64,000 bases of DNA from Cadophora sp. MPI-SDFR-AT-0126. Its lineage: Eukaryota > Ascomycota > Leotiomycetes > Helotiales > Ploettnerulaceae. The notes below the pieces were generated by a model. It was given only the letters and a program-made list of their open reading frames with translations, made no database searches and had not been told where the DNA came from. The position numbers and the translations under genes were made by a program. This document shows positions 3,423 to 22,080 of the stretch, piece by piece (the first letter of the stretch is position 1; each line of letters opens with the position of its first letter). The stretch lies in contig JAGMVK010000028.1 in assembly GCA_020747065.1 (NCBI GenBank), positions 434,001-498,000 of the forward strand, read 5' to 3'.

Positions 3423-5907
3423 TTATTTGCTTATTGTTGACTCGACTACCTCGGCCGCGTACTTTTTAATGTAGCTTGCAACGTTGCGAATCACACCCCA
3501 AGTGCCTGCGCCCTCGAACACAATTGCTGACGTATAGGCGACTTTCGAACTCAGAGGTTGTCGCTTGATGGCCATAGGGAGGTCAAATTCGCACATGGTG
3601 TATTCTATCGATGCCATTACTTGCTTTTCCTCCCCGGTCCATCCACTATAGGGCGTTGATTCCAGAGTGCACAACCACTTCCTTAAATAGCAAGCTGGAA
3701 GCGAACACCAATTAGTTCGTACTCAGCGTATTAAGTGAGTGGAGGAAGGTGGATGGTGGATGAATAGATTGCTTAGCTTTCTTGGCAAAAAGGCCATCAT
3801 ACTTACCACATTGTAGGGCTGAGAAAAAGTACTGGAGACTTCCACAGCCGCTGGTTGGTGTACATTCGAATTTGAACATAATCTGCAGCGCATGCGTGGC
3901 GGTCAATGCGGCTCTTGTGCTGGCTGGTGAGCGATCAATGAGATCGAAGGCGCCGGATAAGGGTGCGTCTTCCGCAAAGGCAGGGCGCAGGCGTTCGAGA
4001 TCCGAGCACAAGTACACTCTAGCCAAACGGACAAGTGAATTCAGGCTATAAGCTTGAGGCGCTCCTTCGCTGTAGAGAGATAATACTGATTCTGCCTTCG
4101 ACATGGAAGCGAGCTCCAGCTTGTCGAGCGCGGACGAGAGTATGGGGAACTGGATCGAGTTGCAAGTGTTCCAACGGTCTTGCCGCAGGAGCCATATCCG
4201 TTGCAACAGGGTGTGGATGATGACAAGATTTGCGAATGTGTTCCTTGGTGGCGTCCAGGAGCTGTCGGGAGAAAGCAACGCATCGAGGGCGGCTGTGAGG
4301 GACACTCGTGGTGGCTGTTGCTCGTAACAACTGAGCCACTCTTGACTCCCAACCGCCTTCCATTCTAATTCGCTTGACGGGAGTGGTTCATTGATGTCTG
4401 AGATGACGAGAGCCGGAGGAATGTCCATTGTCCAAGAGAGCATGTTGAGGAATTGGCAAACGGTATATCTTGTTCTGGTCGAACGTCAGAAACACAAATA
4501 TGAGCGCACTGGCCAGGGCAGGACTCACCGGACTGCAGTCTCCGCTTTGATCCAATCTTTCCATGACACTGACGGTCTGCTAGAGTCATCCATGCTTGGG
4601 GAATTCCGTTGTCGTTGACTATAACGAAATACCTACTCGAAAGTTCATCAACGGTACGTCAACGTAAAGTGCTTTGTCATACCTCAACAAGCATTGATTG
4701 AAGGAGCAATGCGTCCTGCACCATGTTGCTCTTACCACTCCATACCCCATAAGATATGATGAGAAACAGAGCCTGCAGTACTGAGTCGCCACGAATACTA
4801 CTCGTATCCTGTAACAAAAGTTTCTCGGCCTGACCAGGGAGTGAGATGCGAAAGTGGGATAGGGTTCATGGCTTTGACTTACCTGTTGGATAGTTGTCGT
4901 ACGCGCAATTTGATGTAATCTATCACCATGCACGTGGTTTTTACAGTAGATAGCGCCCAGTGAGGACATAGCGAGCAGTACGCAGGGATCAGTATCCTCT
5001 GCACGCCATGTTGGAAGATGCATAAATGGTAGAATTGCGAGCAACGAATCAAAAAATGCAATAATGTAGCGTTCCAGCTGGAGACACCCTGGAAGGTCGA
5101 ATTCTTGATGGAGTGTACTCTGTGTAGCATAATGTTTGAGCTTGGGATGGTGGCAATTACGAGTAGATAACGTACCTCGTCCACTGCGGATATTAGCTCC
5201 TTACGTTTAGTGAAAGACACTTCAAAGGTGCCAAGAGATGACGAGTCCGAATTACGAGGCTCGGGCGAGACAAAGTCAAGAAATGGGTCCTCCTCCGACG
5301 CAAACAAATTCGTTGGTGAGGGGGCAAAATTCCCAAAATCAAGCCGGAAGCCTATTCTGTCATATTCAGCACCAGTACCTGTCACAACGATCTCCTCATT
5401 CGAAATCTCCGTCTCTTCCTTATCTGTGTTTGCTGTGAAGATGTTGAAAGTATTATCGGATGCTAATTGAGCCGTTGGAATTACAAATCCCAGGCTCTCC
5501 GGCAACAGCCCCTCCCAAAAGTTGGCTGTATAAGCTTCATCCCTCTCGCCAACAAACAAAGGAGGGACATCGGCATTTGAGGTGTCTGGCCGTCTTAAGC
5601 CAGGAATTGATGTTTCGACAATTGCTTCGTTCGACGACTGGTCCTGATGTTTGTTTCCCACATGCCGAGTGACCAGTTCCTTGCGGGTGAAGCGCATGCC
5701 ACAAATGTGACAACTGAATGGCTTCTCGCCTCGATCTAGAGGGTCTTGAGCATGTCTGCTTGCTTTCCTCTCACAGCGTCAGGACTTACGAGATCTTTCA
5801 TGGCGGATAAGGTGCTCGTTGCGCGCGAATTCTCTCGAGCAGACACTGCAGGACTTGGTGCCACGGCCGGGTCCATTCACTCGAAAGGCCCCTGTTAACC
5901 CCTGCAT
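3423..5907 (-). CDS. C2H2 zinc-finger transcription factor, Adr1-like fingers with fungal_trans domain
   Basis: Seven exons (5907-5790, 5735-5176, 5119-4883, 4829-4683, 4632-4529, 4474-3807, 3694-3423) encode 701 residues with all phases consistent. Two adjacent C2H2 fingers lie at residues 20-40 (C20, C23, H36, H40) and 48-69 (C48, C51, H64, H69), joined by an HRGEKPF linker. The finger tips RNEHLIRH and RKELVTRH resemble yeast Adr1. The remainder is an acidic middle segment followed by the fungal middle-homology region, including a WKDWIKAETAVRTRY stretch encoded across the exon 5/6 junction. Intron 1 splits the finger linker. The gene sits inside the putative aromatic-acid cluster and carries four ACCCCNN heptads 170-200 bp upstream of its start, so it may control both the cluster and itself. 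Target genes are inferred. Confidence 0.87.
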
Positions 5908-6328
5908 TCTTAGTGCATTGATGACTGTTGAGAGGATATGCTATGATATGATGACGAGTGGGTGTTGAAGTAGATAGATATTATATGGGCTTTTGATTCT
6001 CTTTATAGTATCTCCTACGATTCCGCTGTCCCGCGGTCCCGTCCCTGGACACATCCATTGGCTATGTCGTAGGAGACCCCAGACCCCGCACCCCTCACCC
6101 CGCACATGTGCTTCGCGTACTCCGATCCAAAGCCTTGGATAACGCTTAAAGTTTGTTTTTACTCTCGATGCACAGAGGAAGCTTCTTTCGGAGACCAATT
6201 ACATGAGAATTTGGATATGATTTGGAGCATCACATTTATAGGGACGATTAATGGACAATAGAAAGTACATTGTTTGCTATCAGACTTGACACCAAAATTC
6301 TCCTGTTTCCGCCCGAAGAGTGCCTAAC
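5908..6328. other. Intergenic, regulator promoter
   Basis: No ORF of substance. The segment holds the promoter of the C2H2 regulator, with the heptad array at 6076-6103, and the 3' flank of the dienelactone hydrolase. Confidence 0.6.
6076..6103 (+). promoter_or_regulatory. Four perfect ACCCCNN heptads
   Basis: ACCCCAG, ACCCCGC, ACCCCTC and ACCCCGC follow each other with no gap at 6076, 6083, 6090 and 6097. They lie 169-196 bp upstream of the C2H2 regulator start at 5907. The exact 7-bp period matches the arrays at 1448-1498 and 36034-36054. Confidence 0.6.
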
Positions 6329-7261
6329 CTATTCCGCGAGATACTGGTCAAACCATTGAAGAGCGAATAGGAAGGCTGACTCCTTGGCAAGTTTCTGGCG
6401 CTTGACACTAAGGTCACATCTGATCGCAAATCCGTGGGTGACACCTGAGTAGAGATTGATCTGATACGGAATGTCCAGCTTCAGCAACAATGCCTCGGTA
6501 TCATGTCTCAACGGAGTCGGGAAGATGTCATCCGTCTCAGCAGCTGCTATAGCCAGAGGGCCTTTCACCGCACTCAGCTCATCAGGTGTGACCATTGCGG
6601 GATGGGCGAGGTAGGCTGCATCTACATCGCCAGAACCAAGAGCACGCACTGCGTATTTTGCACCGAAGCAATATCCGACCGACGCGACTCTCTACTCTAT
6701 TATTTAGCTTCGCTCAAACTCAGAGAGGTCGGCTGGGAAATCTAACCTTAACACTGTATCTTCCTCGTAGCGCTTTAAGACTTGCAGCGACCACCGCATC
6801 CACTGTCTCGGGAACATGTGCAATTCCCTTCGCGCCGAACTTGCCGCTCATCCACTCGGGGATGCTGAAGGTTGCCATATCCGCATTGAGTGGCACTGGG
6901 TCGCCAAAGAAGAGATCCGGTACGATGACCGTGTACCTGGAGCGGGTCAGAAAGAAAGACCTCAAGGCCGTAAATTTGTATTGGAAGAAATTGCACACAC
7001 CCGTTCGATGCGAATTGGTCAGCGACTAACTGAGCATTGATGAACTTGTGTCCAATTATATCGGTGAGGCGAGAAGGTCGTTAGCAATCTAAATCCCAAT
7101 GATGAGTGGGAACAGCATTACAACAAAATGCCATAGCCATTTGGTTTCGCAGGCTCGACAATATAGGCCTCAAAATTGGCGATTGTTTCGTATCGACCAC
7201 GGGCATCACCATCGTGTTTTACGCCTTGGTAACAGCAGCTAGCCAGGTTGTTGGAAGTCAT
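6329..7261 (-). CDS. Dienelactone hydrolase family protein, one splice acceptor apparently mutated
   Basis: Four exons (7261-7122, 7069-7001, 6936-6747, 6691-6329) give 253 residues, the usual size for the family. The catalytic triad is visible: Cys141 in GYCFGAKYA, Asp187/188 in ETDDIFP and His219 in THGFAIR. The enzyme family opens dienelactones in ring-cleavage pathways, although many fungal members act on other esters. The oddity is intron 1. The donor gtaatg follows codon 46, a GCTAAC branch site lies near 7085, and the conserved LTDIIGHKF segment must begin at 7069, but the two bases before it read CG (7071-7070 on this strand) instead of AG. No AG nearby restores the frame. Either the gene is damaged, a rare non-AG acceptor is used, or the base is an error. 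Confidence 0.75.
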
Positions 7262-8417
7262 GTTTGCGATTTTGTAGATAGAATATTCAGATCAGTGAAG
7301 CAGATGGGAAAAGTTCTTGCAAAGCACATCAAGCAGATACACAGCAATCGACCACGGTTTTAATTAGAATACCTGCGATTTGGGCCAAGCAGAAGGCCTT
7401 CATTTCCGGCACCATCAACATGGCCGTACTGGCGTTGGGTGGCTCTGTCTGTCCAAGAGCGGTAATTTGGAGCTGCCCCTCCTACCTAAGCGAGTCATGG
7501 AGGCAGTGTAGCTCGCTTCGGCCCGTTACATTGCCCCAAAAGGGGAACTTGGGACCCAAACAATTCATTCTACTTGATCTGTCAGGATGGACTGTCGACT
7601 CTCGGAAGGCATATAACCCCACTGAGGGATGGCCGGAAGGTTCGGGCGCATCAATTCCCGAAAGGTTGTTTGGTCGGAAGTAATTGACGGCGGAAATAAC
7701 CGAAATATTTCTCCCGCTGGTTACTGGGACGCAACCGCCACGTCGGAGAACGTACAGACCGGCAAATTCAGATGCGAAAGTCCATTGAGCATCGAAGCAA
7801 CGCATGTCAGTATCATCTTCGTTTCGTATAGGTGGAACTGGATTTCATATCAAAGATCAGGTTAATGTACACTCAGTATTACATAAATGTCCACTATGTA
7901 CACTCTATACCATGCAGAAGTCTCTGCTTGTTTCTAACCGATCCATATCTGTAATCTGAGCGAGCTCCTCGGAAGCCTCTTGAGGGTATCTGAGATTGCA
8001 TAGGTTGATAGCTGGTTATTAGTATCGTAACGTTAACAGAGACCTAGTGGGCGGTGATATATTGTAATCTTAGGTTTGGGGTGGAAATTAATCTGCAGAA
8101 AGGAGGTCAGGATAGACAATAATAGTGAGTCCCTGGTGAGGAGAAAGGCATGTCTTATCTCAGTGTTTAATGCACCTGATTAACAAACAACACAACAATA
8201 CTCTACCAAAGTGATGGTGGGAAAGAAAAAGAAAAAGTAAAGTCGAAAGCTTGGGTTTCATAGCCGCACTAACTTACCTTGTTCCCACTTCTTTGTGTTT
8301 GCCAAGTTTCCCAGTTGCACTGCGCGCTTTGCCAAACAGAACTTCACAATCTTTGTCAATGTCTTGATTGATACCCTACTCTAATAGTCGGTTTCAGCTC
8401 TTCCCACTCCGTCGCTT
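7262..8417. other. Intergenic
   Basis: No reading frame here shows family motifs. The stretch 7400-7800 is richer in GC than its flanks and could be decayed coding DNA, but I cannot assign it. One ACCCCAC copy lies at 7616-7622, about 355 bp upstream of the dienelactone hydrolase start. Confidence 0.5.
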
Positions 8418-9542
8418 TCAAATAGTAAAAGTCTCAAGTGTACTTGGAGCGAAGAGCTCTTCTGGCTTCAGTCTCCGTTTCGACAGACCCTGTTGAAAAT
8501 GGTAGCCGAGGAACTTATCTAACACATGCTTGTTCTCCTCAAACCCATCCTTCCACCATCTTGAACTCCCACCCATGAGCCTCTTCGTCTCGTCGACATG
8601 GCTCTCCAACCAAGGCAACATGTATCTCAATGCAGCACGTTGTTCCAGGGGCTCGTAAGCTATTTCCAGTGATTTTGCAAACGCCTTAGTTAGCGCCTTC
8701 GCGATCCATGGGTTGGCATCGTAAACGGACCGCTTCAGCGCGACGACGTGCATGACTGGGAAGATTTTGGTGCGTTGATAGTACTCTGCTTCAACCTCTT
8801 GGAAGTTTGGGAAGAGATATCCGACTTTATTCGAGGTGTTCATAGACGAGGGTTTCGTCGCACTAAAGATGGCATCGATTTCTCCGTCTGCTAACATCTG
8901 GCTTAGGTTTTGCCCCTTGCGAATCTGGGTCACTTTGACTCCGGGAGGTAACGAATGTGAGATTTTGCTGTGCCTCTCTCTTTCCGACTCCTCGATTGCA
9001 CCGGTGAAAAATTCAACGCTCTCGATCGGCACGCCAAACTCTTCCTGCATGATGCCTCTTTGCCACACTGCTGCAGTCACTAATAGTAGAAAACAATTGG
9101 TATTATTATTCGCTGTTCATGTACCTTAGGATAGGAAATGAACTTGCTTTGGTACTCCGGAATTCCTATCTTCTTCCCCTTGAGATCCTGAGGCTTCTTG
9201 ATGCCAGAATCTAAATTGATATACATGGACTGGTGTCGAAAGAAACGCGACGGGAACACCGGTAGAGCGATGAATTTTGGCGTCTCCTCATTCAAAGTCA
9301 TGACGTACGAGGACAAGGAGAGCTCCGAAATATCGAACTCCTGAAAGCGTAGTTGCCGAAAAAAGCTTGCGTAAAGGCCGGTCAGCATTGTTTGAGGGTT
9401 ATTTATTATCGGGATTATCATACGTCTCTTCCACACGATAATTAAGGTACGTCAAATCAATCCCTTCGACACGAACCCTTCCATCCTCAATGGCTTTAGT
9501 GCGATCATAATCCCAACAAGCAAATACCAACTTTAGTACCAT
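8418..9542 (-). CDS. 4,5-dihydroxyphthalate decarboxylase-like protein (Pht5 family)
   Basis: Three exons (9542-9424, 9365-9148, 9079-8418) encode 332 residues, matching bacterial Pht5. Conserved marks in order are LVFACWDYDRT near the N-terminus, GRVRVEGIDLTYL, EETFFRQLRFQEFDISELSLSSY, FPSRFFRHQSMYIN, and IPEYQMTAAVWQRG across the second junction. In bacteria the enzyme decarboxylates 4,5-dihydroxyphthalate to protocatechuate using a periplasmic-binding-protein fold. There is no signal peptide here. Intron 2 (9147-9080) starts with GCAAGT and ends with TATTAG, and only this GC-AG splice joins EYQ to MTAAVW in frame. Co-location with a dienelactone hydrolase and FAD monooxygenase supports a role in aromatic acid breakdown. 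The exact substrate is inferred. Confidence 0.85.
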
Positions 9543-10224
9543 GATGGGATGCGGTCTGTTCTGTTCTGTTTTGTGTTGGTTTTTTTTTGGTAATTGGTGG
9601 AGCCAGTCAACCAAATGCGATACAATGTTGATAAATTGACCAGACGAGATCCTCCTGAGCTTCGGCTTTGATAGAAGCACAAGATAAACGTTGAAAGTTT
9701 TTCTTTTTTCTTCTGTATTCGAGCAGACGGGCCTGCCAAAGCAGTCACGGAATTGCTACGGGACACCTACCCCACCAATAGCCTCGCGCTGGAGTTTTAC
9801 CCCACCAGATTCTCTCTGCCCGGAGTTACTGCACTGGGGGTTAATACCCCACCGACTTTACTGTGTTCAGGCACAGGCGAGACACGGTTTGATCCTCTGC
9901 AAATCGGACTTTGGTAGGTAGCTAGTGTGAGCGCATCTCAATGGCGAACCCCTCATCCTCGGGACCTCGCCTTTGAAATGCCCATTGTACATAGGCTTAG
10001 CTGATCGATTGGTCGCTATTTCAAGCTGCTACTCCTAGGGCTGGTCATTGGGTAGTGGTGAGCTTGAGATTGTGAGGCTGCTGCCACTGACACATTGCGG
10101 CGGCCAGCGAGCCAATATCAAATATTGTGGTGGAGAGATACGAAGTGTGATGGTCAATAAATGCTCACGCTATCACGCAGGACTTGGAACAAACATAGCA
10201 GAACTATAACCCCGTTGCATTGTT
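9543..10224. other. Intergenic, shared upstream/3' flank
   Basis: No gene seen. Contains a T-rich tract and, at 9769, 9799 and 9846, three copies of ACCCCACC followed by a purine or A, upstream of the Pht5-like gene. Confidence 0.6.
9769..9855 (+). promoter_or_regulatory. Three dispersed ACCCCACC elements
   Basis: The copies are ACCCCACCAA (9769), ACCCCACCAG (9799) and ACCCCACCGA (9846). They lie 225-315 bp upstream of the Pht5-like start. On the complement each contains GTGGGG, a CreA-type SYGGRG match. They are not in a 7-bp array here. Confidence 0.45.
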
Positions 10225-12734
10225 TTAGTTTGCCGTTGTCGAGGGACTCCTCGACGTAGCAGAACTTGTAGGCGTTAACACAGAACTTGAGCTTGAGGCA
10301 CTCGCTGCCGTGACTTCTTTCTTCAGATCCGGTTTTATCTCCCTCCACTTCGTCAGAACAGCTTCTCTTTCCTCCGCTGTCGCAGCTCTAGCCTCCTCAT
10401 ACCCTTGCGTGAAATGCGCCGCCAATATGAAGCTCAAGGTATCAGAGCCCATACGTTTCTTGATAGCCTCATACACAGCACGAAGACCATACTTCTTACC
10501 ACCAATGACTAAGCCTCGTGAGCGGAAAATCCAACCACCTAGTCCTTTTCCGATACCCTTACCGAACCCTCGCCAACCATTGGCTTTTGCACCTTTGTAG
10601 GGCTCGTAGACCAGTCCACCCCAAGCTTTGGCGATATCGACAGGCAAGTGGAGGACACCGGAGGCGATGGATCCCAAAGTTCCCATGACAGGATTTGCTC
10701 CACTTAAATTGGCGATGACGGTGTGTTCCTCAACTGCATATTCGTAAGGTCGGTAGAGTTTCAGTTGATTGACGTCTATCAGGCCCTCATCTCCTAAGAC
10801 AGTCGCCGCAAACGCGCTGAGCCTGACGTTGCTCGCCTTCCCTTTGGTATTGACTTGCCAGACTGCTACTCGGCTTGGCACCAACATACATCGTAAGTGA
10901 GCAACATCCATCTGTGCATGAAAACTTGCTGCTCCAGCTTCACATCCCTTTTCTTCTCGGATGCGATCTCCCAGCTCCCTTGCGCGCTCGAGTGTCTCCG
11001 GCTTGAGCGCTTCGAGAATACCAGCTGTGAGAGTATCTGCTGTGAGGTCTTTGAACGGTATTGGTGAGGGACCAGCACCAGCACGAGCGACCATAGCACC
11101 CCAGAAGGGCTGGTCTCCGAAGAAGGGGACTACGACCGTTGGCCGACCGAGCGCAATTCCGGCTGCGGTAGTACCAGCTCCACCGTGGTGGACGACACAT
11201 GAGACTCTCTGGAAAAGCCAGTCGTGGGGGCAGTTACCCAACATAAATACTCCATCCGGCTTGTTTAGCTCATCTCCACCGAAGCCACCCCAACCTTTGG
11301 ATACCAGGGCTCGTTGACCCGTCTTTCGGACAGCTTCAAATATCAATTCCGTCATAGCGTTTGGATCATCGACGACAATGGATCCGAATCCGATGTACAC
11401 GGGTGGAGAGCCTGCATTCAGGAAGGCGGCAAGCTCAGCATCCGGTTGATAGTTGGATGCGAGCGAGAGAAAATAGAAACCTGATATATCTATGTGAGAG
11501 CCCCAGTCTGTTGGCTTTGGGATTAAGGCTGGTGACCTGGGGCGATTGTTAATCTTTCATTGCAAAAGTGAAGGCGAGAGGAAATTTTACCAGCAGTATG
11601 TGTACGGTATTCTCAAACGATGAAGCATGCTGACTGCAGACGCCTGGCTGATTATTCCGAGATCAAGGGTCTCTTTTCTGAACTTATTGATGATGTCCCC
11701 GAGTCCTTGCCAGGTCATCATATCAACAAGAGTATATGACAGTTCATTGGTCATGCTACCACTAGCATTGGAAGATTTGATGTTCGCAATTGGATGTGGG
11801 AAGTCATGTGTTGGAGACCAAGGCATTCTTCGAGAATAAGTATCAGCAATATTTAGACAGTGTTAAAATATGCGACTCACGTAAACATCAAGTGCAAGGG
11901 GATTCCCAGTTTCTCGGCGCAGTGTATATGAGCGAAGCTCGGTGGGTTGGCAATTATAGCGTTCGCAATGAATGGCCTAATCTTCACCGCACTCAAACTC
12001 TGCGCTTCGTCATCATCTTGCTTGACCTCATTCGCATCAGCGCAAGACCTCCAACAGCCCTGTAGGATCTCAGCCATTCCTTTCCGTCGCTTCCCAACAT
12101 CCCCTGCCTTAAGGGATTTCACGCCTGGAATGAGTCCAGGATTCTTGACCATGAATGCCATTAACTCGGCTGGATCACCCCCGATTTCGAAGAACTCTAG
12201 GCCATTCTCTTCGACGAAGTTTTTGAATGTTCCATGAGTGGCTAGGCGGACTCGATGGCCGTAGCTGTTCTTCAGGACCCGGCCGAGGGCGACAAAAGGT
12301 TGCACATCGCCTCGCGAGCCGACGACATGGATCACAACATTGAGTGGTGGTGGCCGTTCGATATCTACTGGTCTGACGTCCGTATACTCTGGCGACGGCT
12401 CCGATGGTGTCGATTGGGCGTCAGCTTGTTGGTGCGCCGCTAGATGGAGCTGCTCGATTTGCTTGGTGAGCTGTGAATCGGACTCGTCGATTCTTATGTC
12501 AACGCGGCCATCATCTATATTTCCGGCCAAATCAGCTCAAGTGCATGTTTTGCGATTTGAGTGTATCATTTGTCTCTTACTTCTCACATGAGTCTGGGTA
12601 CTGAAGCCATCCTGGATAATGCTCAGAGTTGCAGTCGTTTCATCAAACAGTTCATATGTTGGCGGAGGCTGGTTGGTTTGGCTCGTCGATGACTCTCCAG
12701 GGCGTGAGTTCATCTGAGGCGTGTCTGAAGCCAT
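10225..12734 (-). CDS. UDP-glucose:sterol-type glucosyltransferase (GT28 N-domain)
   Basis: Four exons (12734-12581, 12514-11881, 11827-11591, 11536-10225) give 778 residues. I chose the ATG at 12734 because the frame upstream has no other ATG. The GT28 N-terminal domain starts with HVVGSRGDVQPF (GSRGD at 118-122), and the C-terminal nucleotide-sugar domain carries HHGGAGTTAAG near residue 458 and VPFFGDQPFWG. A fungal-specific tail follows, rich in Gly with GKGIGKGLGGWIFRS. Such enzymes transfer glucose to ergosterol or other lipophilic acceptors. The PH/GRAM region of Atg26 is absent, so a secondary role (lipid or xenobiotic glucosylation) is more likely than the autophagy form. A Zn2Cys6 regulator lies upstream on the same strand. 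Confidence 0.88.
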
Positions 12735-13072
12735 AGAGATCAAGTGCGTATATGAGTTGTTGGCTCGTACCGGCACATGCTTAAGGTTAAAGGTACGTGA
12801 CGTTGGATGTCAAGCTTTCCTGCTGTCCGGGGCGGCACAGTCGAGCGTAACCCAGACGGGATAGCTTACTGTAGCGTGGAGCCAATTGGTAGGCCGATCT
12901 TTCAGCTTGACCTCTCACGTGCGTGAAGTAAGAATTTGATCCCAATAGATTGGAGGTAATACTTCAATGGGAACAATCAGAAAGTCAGAGAATCTCGAGA
13001 ATAGCCTGAAAAGTTAGGACGACCCGACTGGGGTGGAAACATTGAGTCACGTGCCCAAAAGGTTTTAGTGTT
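12735..13072. other. Intergenic
   Basis: A 338-bp promoter-type spacer between the glucosyltransferase and the Zn2Cys6 regulator. No gene seen. Confidence 0.6.
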
Positions 13073-15223
13073 TCAAAAGTGCTGAGGTCTCTCTGTGTTG
13101 TTGATGTCGTACGCTCCGAAAGATGTGTCCAATGTCATCCAATCGACACCCTCAAGCTCACTGCTAGTAAAGTCCAGATGGTCGAAGAGTCCAAATGTTG
13201 CATCATCGCTGGGCATGCAACTTTGCCAAGGAGGCAGCATCGAGATACTTGAAGCCACTGTCTCGGCGACGCTATCAACTGTGCTGAGATTTGAGATTGA
13301 GCTCAGGGCAGCTATACACTCCTGAGATGGCAGATCTACCGTCCGGTTCAAAGATTTTGCGTTGGCCCGGTTCAGGGTGAGACGGATGATATGTGAAACC
13401 CTGAGAGCGTCTTTGCTGACTGGAGCAATTTCAAGACAGACAGAATGTGACTGTTGGAGCAACTCCACTACCTTCATTCTTGTTTCCATGTCGATTAATG
13501 AGATGCCCGTATCTTTTCTCTGGCAACTGTGAACCGCGAGGCAAAGAACCACATTTCCCAGCAGAAAATCATTCACAGTGAAGTTCGTGAGCATCCATCG
13601 CTGGTTGTGTAACTGTCCCCCTGGTGAAAATTCCTTGTTCATTTCGATGAATTGTCTGACTAGTCCCATGCCAGCTTCAACGCAGGTCCGGGTACTGAAG
13701 TCATTCCCTCGAGCCATGTACTTTCGATGAAGAACACAGACACTTTTTAAGTAGATGAAGTGAAGATATATCCTCGTCATGATTAGGAATGGTTCATTTG
13801 CGACAGATTCTGCCATTGGTCGTGCTTGTAGGATAGCTGGAACGGACTCATACATCTCGCGGATCTCTGCATCAAGCGCGATTATCTCGCTTTCAGATTT
13901 TTCTTTGAATGAGAGGGCGTCTTGACACACTTTGCTGAAGCTGACGATTTGCCTCTCCTTGACGATAAACCAAAGCAGCTTCGAGGGCTCGTTTTCGGAT
14001 CTTGAAGCCGGGAGGATGGTTGTGTCCTCATCGAAGTCCGAGTCGATCAGGTTTCTCGGTGATCTGGTATCACAATGCTCAAGCCTCACATTGCTTGGCA
14101 GACCAAGCTGGAAGCAAGTCATCAAGTCCATTTGCTTGATCGACGCCCAGAATCGTCTCCTCATTTCACCTTCGAAAACCGTGAAGTTTCCGAATGAGTC
14201 TGGGTCTCGGTGGTAACCCATCCCGTAAGACATCCGGACAATCATGCTGAGGATTGTGCCAACTTCTTGGGATGGGTCTAATGTTAAAAGATTTTTACAT
14301 TGTCCATACAATGCCAGCGCCTCCATGCCGAACTTCTGTGGTCGGTGATATTCCCCCAGCACGAGACACTGTCCTGCAGCCGTATGCAGTGAGTGTTTTC
14401 CGTTGGAGACAGCTCGTCGTGGAGAGTAGGGCGAGCCGGTGTTTCGTCCGAACAGTGACGCCATGTGACAAATTGAGAAAAGCATTGAAAGCCAGAGAGG
14501 CCTGACTTTGGCCGTGTCTGCCAGGAAATCTCGATATTGACGCTGAAACTGATAGGTATGGATGAATGGAACGATATATGTCTCTCCTTGGAAATATCTG
14601 GACAGGTATCGGTCGACCTCGATTTTCGGAGGGAGGAATTGGGAAATAATTCGACCAAGCGAGTAATTACCCGGTGTTCCAAAGATCAGCTCTTCATTTG
14701 AGTTCAGCGTGTCTAGTGGGACGAATGGCTGCTCATCCGACACCTCTGGAGTTCCGGCGAGAGCAATTTTCATTTCATGTATGTCTTCCAACATTGATGA
14801 CCAGTGAGTTGACCCTAAGTAAGCTTCTGTCGCTGCAGATGTTTCAACCGAAAGTTCGTCGGGACTGCGATCCTTGTGAGGGCTGCCCGATGACTGTTTG
14901 GGCATGATTGGCAACTCAACATTACTAGATGCCGCTGGAGTTTGATTTTTGATCAATAATGTAACCAGGGACTCGAGATGTTGCAATTTGTCCTCGGCAA
15001 TGGTGTTATATCCACAGGCCGTAGATGTTGACTGCTGGTAGCTGCAATTTGCTGCATCATCTTTCTTAACACAGCTGCCACATGGTTGTCCACGATCGCA
15101 TCGAACCTTTGCTTTCTTGCATTGATTGCAGACCAAACGCGGCCGTTTATTGACCTTTCCTGGCGAGGACTCACCAGGTCCATCGAGTCGAAATTTGCTC
15201 GTAAATTTTGACAGTTCCGCCAT
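13073..15223 (-). CDS. Zn2Cys6 transcription factor with fungal_trans domain
   Basis: A single uninterrupted exon encodes 716 residues. The binuclear cluster is complete: Cys32, 35, 42, 48, 51 and 60 with spacing C-2-C-6-C-5-C-2-C-8-C. A short linker and coiled segment (KLQHLESLVTLLIKN) follow, consistent with dimerisation. The middle-homology region spans roughly residues 195-500, including YGMGYHRDPDSFGNF and RRRFWASIKQMDL. It lies directly upstream of the glucosyltransferase on the same strand and could regulate it, but this is inference. Lack of introns in a fungal gene this long is mildly unusual. Confidence 0.92.
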   Translation of the reverse strand: MAELSKFTSKFRLDGPGESSPGKVNKRPRLVCNQCKKAKVRCDRGQPCGSCVKKDDAANCSYQQSTSTACGYNTIAEDKLQHLESLVTLLIKNQTPAASSNVELPIMPKQSSGSPHKDRSPDELSVETSAATEAYLGSTHWSSMLEDIHEMKIALAGTPEVSDEQPFVPLDTLNSNEELIFGTPGNYSLGRIISQFLPPKIEVDRYLSRYFQGETYIVPFIHTYQFQRQYRDFLADTAKVRPLWLSMLFSICHMASLFGRNTGSPYSPRRAVSNGKHSLHTAAGQCLVLGEYHRPQKFGMEALALYGQCKNLLTLDPSQEVGTILSMIVRMSYGMGYHRDPDSFGNFTVFEGEMRRRFWASIKQMDLMTCFQLGLPSNVRLEHCDTRSPRNLIDSDFDEDTTILPASRSENEPSKLLWFIVKERQIVSFSKVCQDALSFKEKSESEIIALDAEIREMYESVPAILQARPMAESVANEPFLIMTRIYLHFIYLKSVCVLHRKYMARGNDFSTRTCVEAGMGLVRQFIEMNKEFSPGGQLHNQRWMLTNFTVNDFLLGNVVLCLAVHSCQRKDTGISLIDMETRMKVVELLQQSHSVCLEIAPVSKDALRVSHIIRLTLNRANAKSLNRTVDLPSQECIAALSSISNLSTVDSVAETVASSISMLPPWQSCMPSDDATFGLFDHLDFTSSELEGVDWMTLDTSFGAYDINNTERPQHF

Positions 15224-15872
15224 CGTAGAATGCCATCAGTGCATCGGATTTCATACGGTGACAGTATTTGGGTCATTCGTCAGTCTCAAGGATAAAGTCC
15301 GATGAGTGCCGGCTGGAACAGACAGCTAGGGAAGGGTTGGCTGAGGGAGCGGACTGGCGGAGGTCAAGTAGGTCGCTTGCTAGCGCTGCTGACTAACCGA
15401 AACTGGTTTTGTGACCGATACTTTCCTGTCCTTGCCCTTATTTCAACAAACATGTTCAATTACATATCTCAGCTTAAAGATGCAGAAGTTCTCAGCCCGG
15501 AGTACTCGAGTTCGATGTACATTGCCAAGTACCCTTGTACTTGTTTCATGCCGCTTCGGCTCTCCATTTCTTAAATCCGAATAGCGAGCTGTTTTCGTCC
15601 GTTCATTCGTCCGAAGATTTCAGGTTTCGTCCGGTCGGCGACGTCAACTTCGACGTGCTACGCCCTTCTTAAACTCTAATAAAGCGTTACTTCCCACATT
15701 TCGTACTATCTGTGTCAGTTCCCTGTCTTCTCTCGATGCTTCAACACAGGATTTTCTCTCCTTTTAATGTTCCCGTTTTGACTTTTCCCTTTATCTATCC
15801 CCATCGTCTACCTGTCATCGACCAGAACCTTTAAAGCACATCCCCATCGTTACTCTTTTCCCCTACCTCAAA
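15224..15872. other. Intergenic, divergent promoter region
   Basis: Spacer between divergent genes. The last 150 bp before 15873 are CT-rich like a fungal 5' UTR. No gene seen. Confidence 0.6.
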
Positions 15873-16996
15873 ATGGGTTGGTTTACTTCATTTCTCTATT
15901 CACAATTCTGTGTCACGTTACCCGAGCCAACGAAGGACTTTTCCGGTCAGAGTGTGATCATCACCGGCTCAAACACAGGTCTTGGCCTCGAAGCAGCTCG
16001 GCACTTGTCTCGTCTCAATGCAACTCTCATCATCCTTGCCGTTCGGAATCAAGCCAAAGGCGAAGCTGCAAAGAGAAATATACTTGCCAGTACAAATCGT
16101 CCGGAGAAGAGCATCGAGGTGTGGGACTTAGACATGCAGTCGTATGACTCCATCAAATCCTTTTGCACCAGGGCTAGTGAAACACTTCCACGCCTCGATG
16201 CTGTTATCGAAAATGCTGGCATCATGACGAAATACTTCAAAATGGTAGAGGGGTACGAAAGCACTGTTACCACGAATGTTATCGGCACGTTCCTACTTGC
16301 GCTGGGCCTTCTGCCGAAGCTCAAGCAATCAGCAGCGGATTTTAGCATTCAACCCAAACTTTCAATCGTGTCATCGGACTTGCATTTCATCGCCAAATTT
16401 TCGGAACGTCACAATGGCGATATTTTCGAGTCTTTGAATGATGAGAAATCCCAGATGGGAATGGAGAGGTGAGGTCCATTGTCCGCAATAGACAATTGAT
16501 CAGGTGTATTGACATTATTTCTCCAGATATGCGGTCACAAAGCTCATCCAAGTCTTCGGCGTCCGTAAGCTAGCCTCGATTATATGCAAAGACTCAAAGT
16601 CAGGTTCTCCATCAGTCATCGTCAATTGTTTGACACCAGGCGCTTGCAAGTCGGATTTTCATCGCGAGAATTCCAGCATCGGCAATATCATCCAATCAAT
16701 CCTGGACGCACTCATTGCGCGTACAACCGAAGCTGGGAGTAGGACTCTCGTAGCTGGAATTGCTGCTGGCGAAGAGAGTCATGGTGCATATATGGCGGAT
16801 TGTAGAGTTACAAAGTACGCATCTCTATGTTTCCACTCTACCTCCATAGATTGAATTTGATTCAGGAGACTGACTGCCACACAGACCGGGCCCAATGCTT
16901 CTTGGCTCTGACGGCAAGGCGCTGCAGGAAGTTCTTTGGTATCAACTTGTTCGGCAGCTGGAGGCTATTCAACCTGGTATTGCACAAATTTCCTGA
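15873..16996 (+). CDS. Short-chain dehydrogenase/reductase (WWOX/retinol-dehydrogenase-like)
   Basis: Three exons (15873-16468, 16527-16814, 16885-16996) encode 331 residues. The Rossmann TGSNTGLG motif is at residues 31-38, ENAG near 114, and the catalytic YxxxK pair is Tyr200/Lys204, created across the first junction (RYAVTK). The length and the long N-terminus fit the fungal WWOX/Tic32-like SDR group, which reduces or oxidises carbonyls with NAD(P). The second acceptor is at 16884 (CACACAG). A nearer CAG at 16865 gives an early stop. Substrate unknown. Confidence 0.86.
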
Positions 16997-21702: not shown

Positions 21703-21927
21703 GGCTTTGATGTGGAGAGATATGAATACAGAAAGGTCAGAAAAGGTAACCATTCAAGACTCATTGAAATTGCTCCTTTCTCCAGACACTGAATCTTCGT
21801 CCAGTGTTGGTGCGTGTACCTGCCGCCTGAGTCGTACACCGGGCCTTCCCAAAACGGAAATACTACTCCATCAACACCACCCGTATCTACCCAAACAAGC
21901 AAAAAGACAGCACAACAACTACAACCC

Positions 21928-22062
21928 GACACTTGTAAGTCTCACCATCATAGTCCAACAATCGGTTCACTCGACTAACAACAATCAGTGGCAGAGCGGT
22001 CCAATGCGATTCCCCGCTAAGGAATTCCCTTCGGGGGCGCGAGTTCGAATCTCGCAGGTGTC
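21928..22062 (+). tRNA. tRNA-Ser(GCT) with 54-bp spliceosomal-like insert after nucleotide 7
   Basis: Segment 21989-22062 folds as tRNA positions 8-73 of a serine tRNA: D stem GCA/TGC, anticodon stem ATTCC/GGAAT with anticodon GCT, a class II variable arm, T arm GCGAG-TTCGAAT-CTCGC, and 3' acceptor strand AGGTGTC. The A box TGGCAGAGCGG and B box are present. The matching 5' acceptor strand GACACTT (six Watson-Crick pairs and one G-T) lies at 21928-21934, separated by 21935-21988. That insert starts GTAAGT, has a GACTAAC branch-like site and ends in CAG. Removing it gives an 81-nt tRNA. Position 33 is C rather than the near-universal T. Alternatives are a 5'-truncated pseudogene with a chance upstream match, or a non-functional split copy. 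Confidence 0.6.
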
Positions 22063-22070
22063 TTTCTATA

Positions 22071-22080
22071 TTTTCTTTTT
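22071..22080 (+). terminator. Pol III T-run terminator
   Basis: TTTTCTTTTT begins 9 bp after the tRNA 3' end, as expected for RNA polymerase III termination. Confidence 0.6.

Follow-up and report, generated by a model that had tools for sequence, protein, structure and literature searches.

A tRNA-Ser(GCT)-like gene with a predicted spliceosomal intron, one of at least 25 interrupted tRNA genes in a Cadophora genome

For the mRNA-type intron in the U6 snRNA gene of fission yeast and other fungi, PMC10484740 cites Tani and Ohshima (1989 and 1991). This intron lies near the catalytic bases and is explained by reverse splicing. The genes described here resemble fungal U6 in that a GT-AG intron lies in a non-coding RNA gene transcribed by Pol III (predicted in our case). 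In fungal U6, however, a single snRNA gene is concerned, whereas here at least 25 tRNA genes are interrupted at many positions. A second parallel is the rDNA of lichen-forming ascomycetes, where mRNA-type introns likewise occur in non-coding RNA made by a polymerase other than Pol II. Yeast can remove such a spliceosomal rDNA intron from a Pol I transcript, according to PMC8527467. There the host is rRNA, transcribed by Pol I from repeat units of one gene, in contrast to the tRNA families and predicted Pol III transcription considered here.

Introns outside position 37/38, up to three in one gene, are reported for tRNA genes of nucleomorphs and of Cyanidioschyzon in PMC4090602, and our genes are similar in both respects. 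The introns of Guillardia measure 3-24 nt and are discussed as endonuclease substrates, whereas ours measure 47-96 nt and combine GT-AG ends with a branch motif. Ordinary 37/38 introns differ as well: they lie at another position, carry no GT-AG or branch signature and are removed by the tRNA endonuclease (PMC13149111). Reviews assign the removal of tRNA introns to an enzyme other than the mRNA-splicing machine. A search of open-access papers turned up no account of nuclear tRNA genes with spliceosomal introns, which does not prove that none is in print.

The split tRNA-Ser(GCT) locus

Scans of the window (the whole stretch of 64,000 nucleotides analysed) with ARAGORN and with Rfam at default settings gave no tRNA. 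When 231 bases were searched with lax filters, RF00005 matched 21989-22055 at 30.7 bits (cut-off 29), covering model positions 8-63. The locus is laid out as follows.

21888..21901, + strand: TACCCAAACAAGCA, an upstream element predicted to act as Pol III promoter (element score 12.5)
21928..21934, + strand: 5' exon GACACTT, tRNA nucleotides 1-7, 7/7 pairs with AGGTGTC (22056-22062)
21935..21988, + strand: putative mRNA-type intron of 54 nt, GTAAGT..GACTAAC..CAG, from the letters and excision rescoring
21935..21940, + strand: 5' splice site GTAAGT, the identical hexamer in 10/30 tRNA introns
21975..21979, + strand: CTAAC branch-point motif, whose A at 21978 (10 nt before the intron end) is the predicted branch point
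21986..21988, + strand: 3' splice site CAG, as in 22/30 tRNA introns
21989..22063, + strand: 3' exon, carrying tRNA nucleotides 8-72 and then T73 (22063)
21989..21999, + strand: TGGCAGAGCGG, which we take to be the A box
22016..22018, + strand: anticodon GCT; nucleotide 33 just before it is C (22015), not T
22043..22051, + strand: GTTCGAATC, taken as the B-box core
22071..22080, + strand: T-runs T4 (22071-22074) and T5 (22076-22080), predicted Pol III terminator

A sequence-only reading had placed the acceptor strand of a tRNA-Ser body 54 bp upstream of that body, and this proved exact: GACACTT and AGGTGTC form 7/7 pairs, one of them T-G, and the T-stem is intact with 5/5 pairs. The coordinates also confirm that the 54-bp insert, with GTAAGT, CTAAC and CAG, stands exactly after nucleotide 7. 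ARAGORN reports no tRNA in the unspliced region; once the intron is excised it recovers the spliced 81-nt tRNA predicted earlier (82 nt including nucleotide 73) as a tRNA-Ser(GCT) with a long variable arm and a score of 112.6. In this product GACACTT would be joined to TGGCAGAG. Among 8060 motif-free excisions at the locus five tie for best, and one of the five is the GT..AG stretch. We estimate the chance of the whole arrangement at ~5e-8 per tRNA body, or ~1.5e-5 for 100 bodies and 3 boundaries, with a branch-distance term that was fixed after the other introns had been seen; chance pairing is rejected on this estimate.

It might be possible that the window copy alone is decaying or inactive within a class of interrupted tRNA genes that is real, and we regard this as a serious but improbable explanation. 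The copy carries C33 instead of T33, and T73 instead of the G73 of the Ser(GCT) genes L036 and L127, and L036 is uninterrupted. It resembles the remaining three Ser(GCT) genes little, the sole genome match of the 191-base locus at E 0.001 being the locus itself, and it is by fold and anticodon only that it is filed as a tRNA-Ser(GCT)-like gene. Because C33 and T73 are unusual, we are less confident that this copy is active than that the class is, and with L036 uninterrupted the copy could be weak or dispensable. Against decay stand intact splice signals, upstream element and T-runs and the full set of 7 acceptor and 5 T-stem pairs; the T-stem differs in its letters from those of L127 and L036 and yet keeps its pairing. 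We consider it very probable that the window holds a tRNA-Ser(GCT) gene split by an mRNA-type intron, predicted to be removed by the spliceosome, and that it is one of at least 25 such genes.

Interrupted tRNA genes in the genome

The earlier interpretation of the insert as an mRNA-type intron is supported at the level of sequence and applies far more generally than to this locus. We counted 30 such introns in the 54-Mb genome (38 contigs), spread over 25 tRNA genes and 13 isoacceptor families; many positions are affected, and a gene can have up to three. The closest protein match of the genome is to Cadophora malorum, a species of Ploettnerulaceae (Helotiales), with which a DUF255-family protein encoded in the window shares 97% identity. 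The interrupted genes are these.

Ser(GCT): the window copy (one intron), L127 (three introns), L152 (three introns and a 37/38 intron)
Ile(AAT): L038, L044, L047
Arg: L045 (TCT), L054 (TCG), L056 (ACG)
Thr: L055, L150 (two introns), L151
Val: L089, L144, L145, L146
His: L113, L142, L143
Gly: L090, L149
Met: L040; Ser(AGA): L049; Ala: L053; Pro: L084

Before excision ARAGORN found no tRNA in 19/25 of these genes and gave a lower score in the other 6/25; after excision of the GT-AG stretches 25/25 scored as tRNAs (104.5-123.7). Three of them, L040, L144 and L145, are then given a wrong name, apparently through misplacement of the 37/38 intron; an ordinary intron at 37/38 co-occurs in several interrupted genes (e.g. 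His, Val, Ala and L152). The exons of L127 join into an 81-nt tRNA-Ser(GCT), and the joined exons of L152 read like those of L036.

Two kinds of excision search were used. In the motif-rule search each GT..AG stretch with a loose branch motif was excised and the remainder rescored by ARAGORN; for the seven introns of L149-L152 this was the only search. In the motif-free search every stretch of 38-89 nt was excised (5616-15964 excisions per intron), and the GT..AG excision was among the best for 12/18 introns, being the sole best for 6 of those, and for 2/5 in a further set (both His; the three Val not). In 46 genes that lack such introns (12 of these have no candidate stretch), excision never improved the score and gave one tie.

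A genome search with RF00005 returned 48 matches at E 0.001, rising to 52 at E 10; the window gene is missing from them because only the best candidates were scored. The three matches without an acceptor (L044, L045 and L047), L038 and all four extra weak matches (L053-L056) turned out to be tRNA genes that bear inserts of this kind. The upstream-element pattern TANCNARATAAGCA occurs at 71 places in the genome, compared with 6 for the reversed control; 63 were read, 5 were tRNA genes already in the set and 3 with a repeat-like string were left out. In this sample, drawn by the upstream element alone, 8/16 clear tRNA genes are interrupted (Ile L065, Thr L076, Pro L084, Val L089, Gly L090, His L113, Ser L127 and Met L040), and L012, L026, L030, L037, L072, L092, L112 and L123 are uninterrupted. 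Since the RF00005 search is biased against interrupted genes, this is a less biased figure than the overall 25/71 clear tRNA genes, which mixes that search (10/52 interrupted) with probes taken from interrupted genes. Nine fungal tRNA sequences gave no match as probes, nor did two exact scans of viral contigs, and when Rfam was applied to 20 loci, some with the element and some not, the only tRNAs it recognised were two in L095. The counts leave out L088, L095 (two matches), L109, L128, L133, L137 and L138 as tRNA-like and not clear, together with L147/L148 (G000:C8:689740-690060), a second Pro(AGG) copy. The latter has a GT-AG stretch in its T arm and is taken as decayed because its 3' acceptor strand does not pair. 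At L088 (G000:C11:570921) a tRNA-like sequence follows the upstream element, which ARAGORN assigns to Leu(CAG), placing a 7-nt intron in it.

Families were counted with joined exons as probes, the places hit then being read, and diverged copies may be missed by this procedure. All tRNA-His genes found (3/3) are interrupted after nucleotide 12, with a predicted junction of GGTGGTGTGGTG and TAATGGTAG, and all tRNA-Val(AAC) genes found (4/4) after nucleotide 23. As no uninterrupted gene was found for either, splicing should be essential in both families. In other families 3/4 genes of Ile(AAT), 3/4 of Ser(GCT), 3/4 of Thr(AGT) and 2/5 of Gly(GCC) are interrupted. The sequence-only reading had named several intact tRNA-Ser(GCT) genes elsewhere as evidence that would speak against it; we counted four genes, of which three are interrupted and one (L036) is not, and this counter-evidence did not appear. 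Within the His and Val sets the exons are identical and the intron interiors 52-62% identical (shuffled means 46-54%): the introns drift, and what stays conserved is the exons and the splice signals. The four copies of tRNA-Ile(AAT) comprise the uninterrupted L007 and three genes with an acceptor intron (L038, L044 and L047). Pair 2-71 is G-C in L044 and A-T in L007, L038 and L047; altered on both sides of the intron, it shows that the separated 5' exon of L044 changed together with the body. The acceptor intron of L044 lies at 5/6, and that of L038 and L047 at 6/7, with the exon sequence kept; this shift by one nucleotide looks like intron sliding by one base. No clear gene for tRNA-Asn or tRNA-Glu was met in our non-exhaustive searches of the genome; such genes may be interrupted where the probes needed sequence, or may simply have been missed.

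The introns themselves are 47-96 nt long (median 53). Their ends are GT in 30/30 and AG in 30/30 (CAG 22, TAG 5, AAG 3), ends that the motif-rule searches impose along with a loose branch motif. The 5' splice site reads GTNNGT in 26/30, with four deviating, and every intron has a CTRAY branch motif (CTAAC 16, CTAAT 10, CTGAC 2, CTGAT 2), whose A precedes the 3' end by 10-13 nt in 29/30 and by 17 nt in the remaining one. BLAST among 23 of the introns gave a single match, of 14 nt, and recently spread copies of one intron are rejected as their source on this ground. Thirty mRNA-like intron candidates from open frames have a median of 53.5 nt and GTAAGT and GTGAGT as commonest 5' splice sites, seven containing T4 and one T5 as against five and one of the 30 tRNA introns; the comparison is weak because the mRNA introns come from open frames, a method that gave 31 real candidates and 22 in the control. 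The T-run counts do not decide for or against depletion of such runs as a mark of Pol III. The window holds five strict mRNA intron cases.

These properties bear on the question of whether the introns, if real, might be removed by the tRNA splicing endonuclease and a ligase, as proposed for cryptophyte nucleomorphs and Cyanidioschyzon. Other eukaryotes do have introns at many tRNA positions with up to three per gene (PMC4090602), and many genes here also carry an ordinary 37/38 intron. Endonuclease introns, however, need neither GT-AG ends nor a branch motif at a fixed distance (PMC13149111), whereas here the ends occur in 30/30 and the motif at 10-13 nt in 29/30, and we find this explanation very unlikely. 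A bulge-helix-bulge with all four central pairs was present in 0/23 tRNA introns and also in 0/16 ordinary 37/38 introns, so that it has no power to distinguish them.

Predicted promoter elements, internal boxes and terminators

An upstream element of ATAAG type (consensus TAACCAAATAAGAA) precedes tRNA genes of this genome. At the window locus it scores 12.5, compared with 11.0 for the 99% quantile of shuffles. In five genes interrupted in the acceptor the distance from element to 5' exon is 33 (window), 34, 33, 35 and 45 nt, and in 42 uninterrupted tRNA genes the spacing is 19-75 nt (median 39). Measured to the would-be start of the body, the distance in the same five genes is 84-101 nt, beyond the 19-75 range. 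It had been objected that the acceptor strand lies too far from the A box for Pol III; this is answered in part, by an element spaced from the 5' exon. A run of T4 or longer follows 19/21 genes, the other two having 30 nt of downstream sequence only, and the window copy has both its T-runs within 20 nt. An upstream element spaced as in uninterrupted genes and T-runs downstream together point to Pol III.

Where the junctions were read, the A box is split by the intron in genes for His and Thr and in Ser(GCT) L127, and it is the B box that is split in Gly genes and in two Arg genes. Such split boxes might be made up for by the external element. The intron of L151 holds a T5 run, at which Pol III could stop. 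At the tRNA-His genes L113 and L142 a conserved stretch, TATCTGGATTGAAAGTT, is shared right after the tRNA; the first T-run of L113 lies ~70 nt downstream, which makes a longer or two-part transcript possible.

Some sequences of other kinds were met with the element. At L066, L071, L075, L087, L108 and L115 it is followed by a multi-copy sequence that resembles a small RNA, GGGCGGCCAC..GGTTCAGGTCAAAGC.., for which Rfam gave no match at L066 and L071. L070, L073, L082 and L086 have near-identical sequence with TACCTAAATAAGCA, 7-8 kb from contig ends (as seen at C2, C3 and C7), and this repeat is probably subtelomeric, not a tRNA promoter.

That the 54 nt are the leader intron of a Pol II gene before an acceptor-less tRNA, with seven pairs formed by chance, is practically negligible as an explanation: the C- and A-rich upstream sequence does give the impression of a fungal mRNA leader, but the chance estimate above stands against it, the same logic holds at other tRNA positions in 24 other genes, and as a general account it is ruled out by L127 and L152, with three introns each, and by the His and Val genes.

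A predicted route through the spliceosome

If the window gene and its relatives are spliced as we propose, the upstream element would guide Pol III to a start slightly ahead of the 5' exon, and the polymerase would transcribe through the short intron up to the T-run. The nuclear spliceosome would then excise the intron before RNase P can act, because no acceptor stem exists without the 5' exon. End trimming, and removal of the ordinary 37/38 intron where there is one, would finish the tRNA. For tRNA-His and tRNA-Val(AAC) this route would be essential for growth. A counterpoint is that splicing would have to handle very short first exons on uncapped transcripts. On balance we think it likely that a large share of the tRNAs of this fungus is made via the spliceosome, that His and Val(AAC) exist in interrupted form only, that internal boxes are split and external promoters choose the start, and that translation thus depends on the spliceosome.

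If this is true, a living fungus would overstep the divide between tRNA and mRNA splicing. Such tRNAs escape gene finders (ARAGORN misses 19/25), so the tRNA numbers published for related fungi may be in error. The genes also make it testable how far Pol III manages when the internal A and B boxes are broken up, and whether introns of the spliceosomal kind enter any nuclear transcript and persist where the promoter lies outside the gene.

The sequence-only reading had drawn on introns in fungal U6 genes as a precedent, and the same genome provides examples. Read by eye, two U6 snRNA genes have GT-AG stretches with CTAAC inside U6, at different positions.

U6 L100, G000:C38:2221085: GGTCAAT^GTAAGC..TTTCAG^TTGAAACG
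U6 L103, G000:C11:486589: AGCATGGC^GTAAGT..TTTCAG^CCCTGCAC
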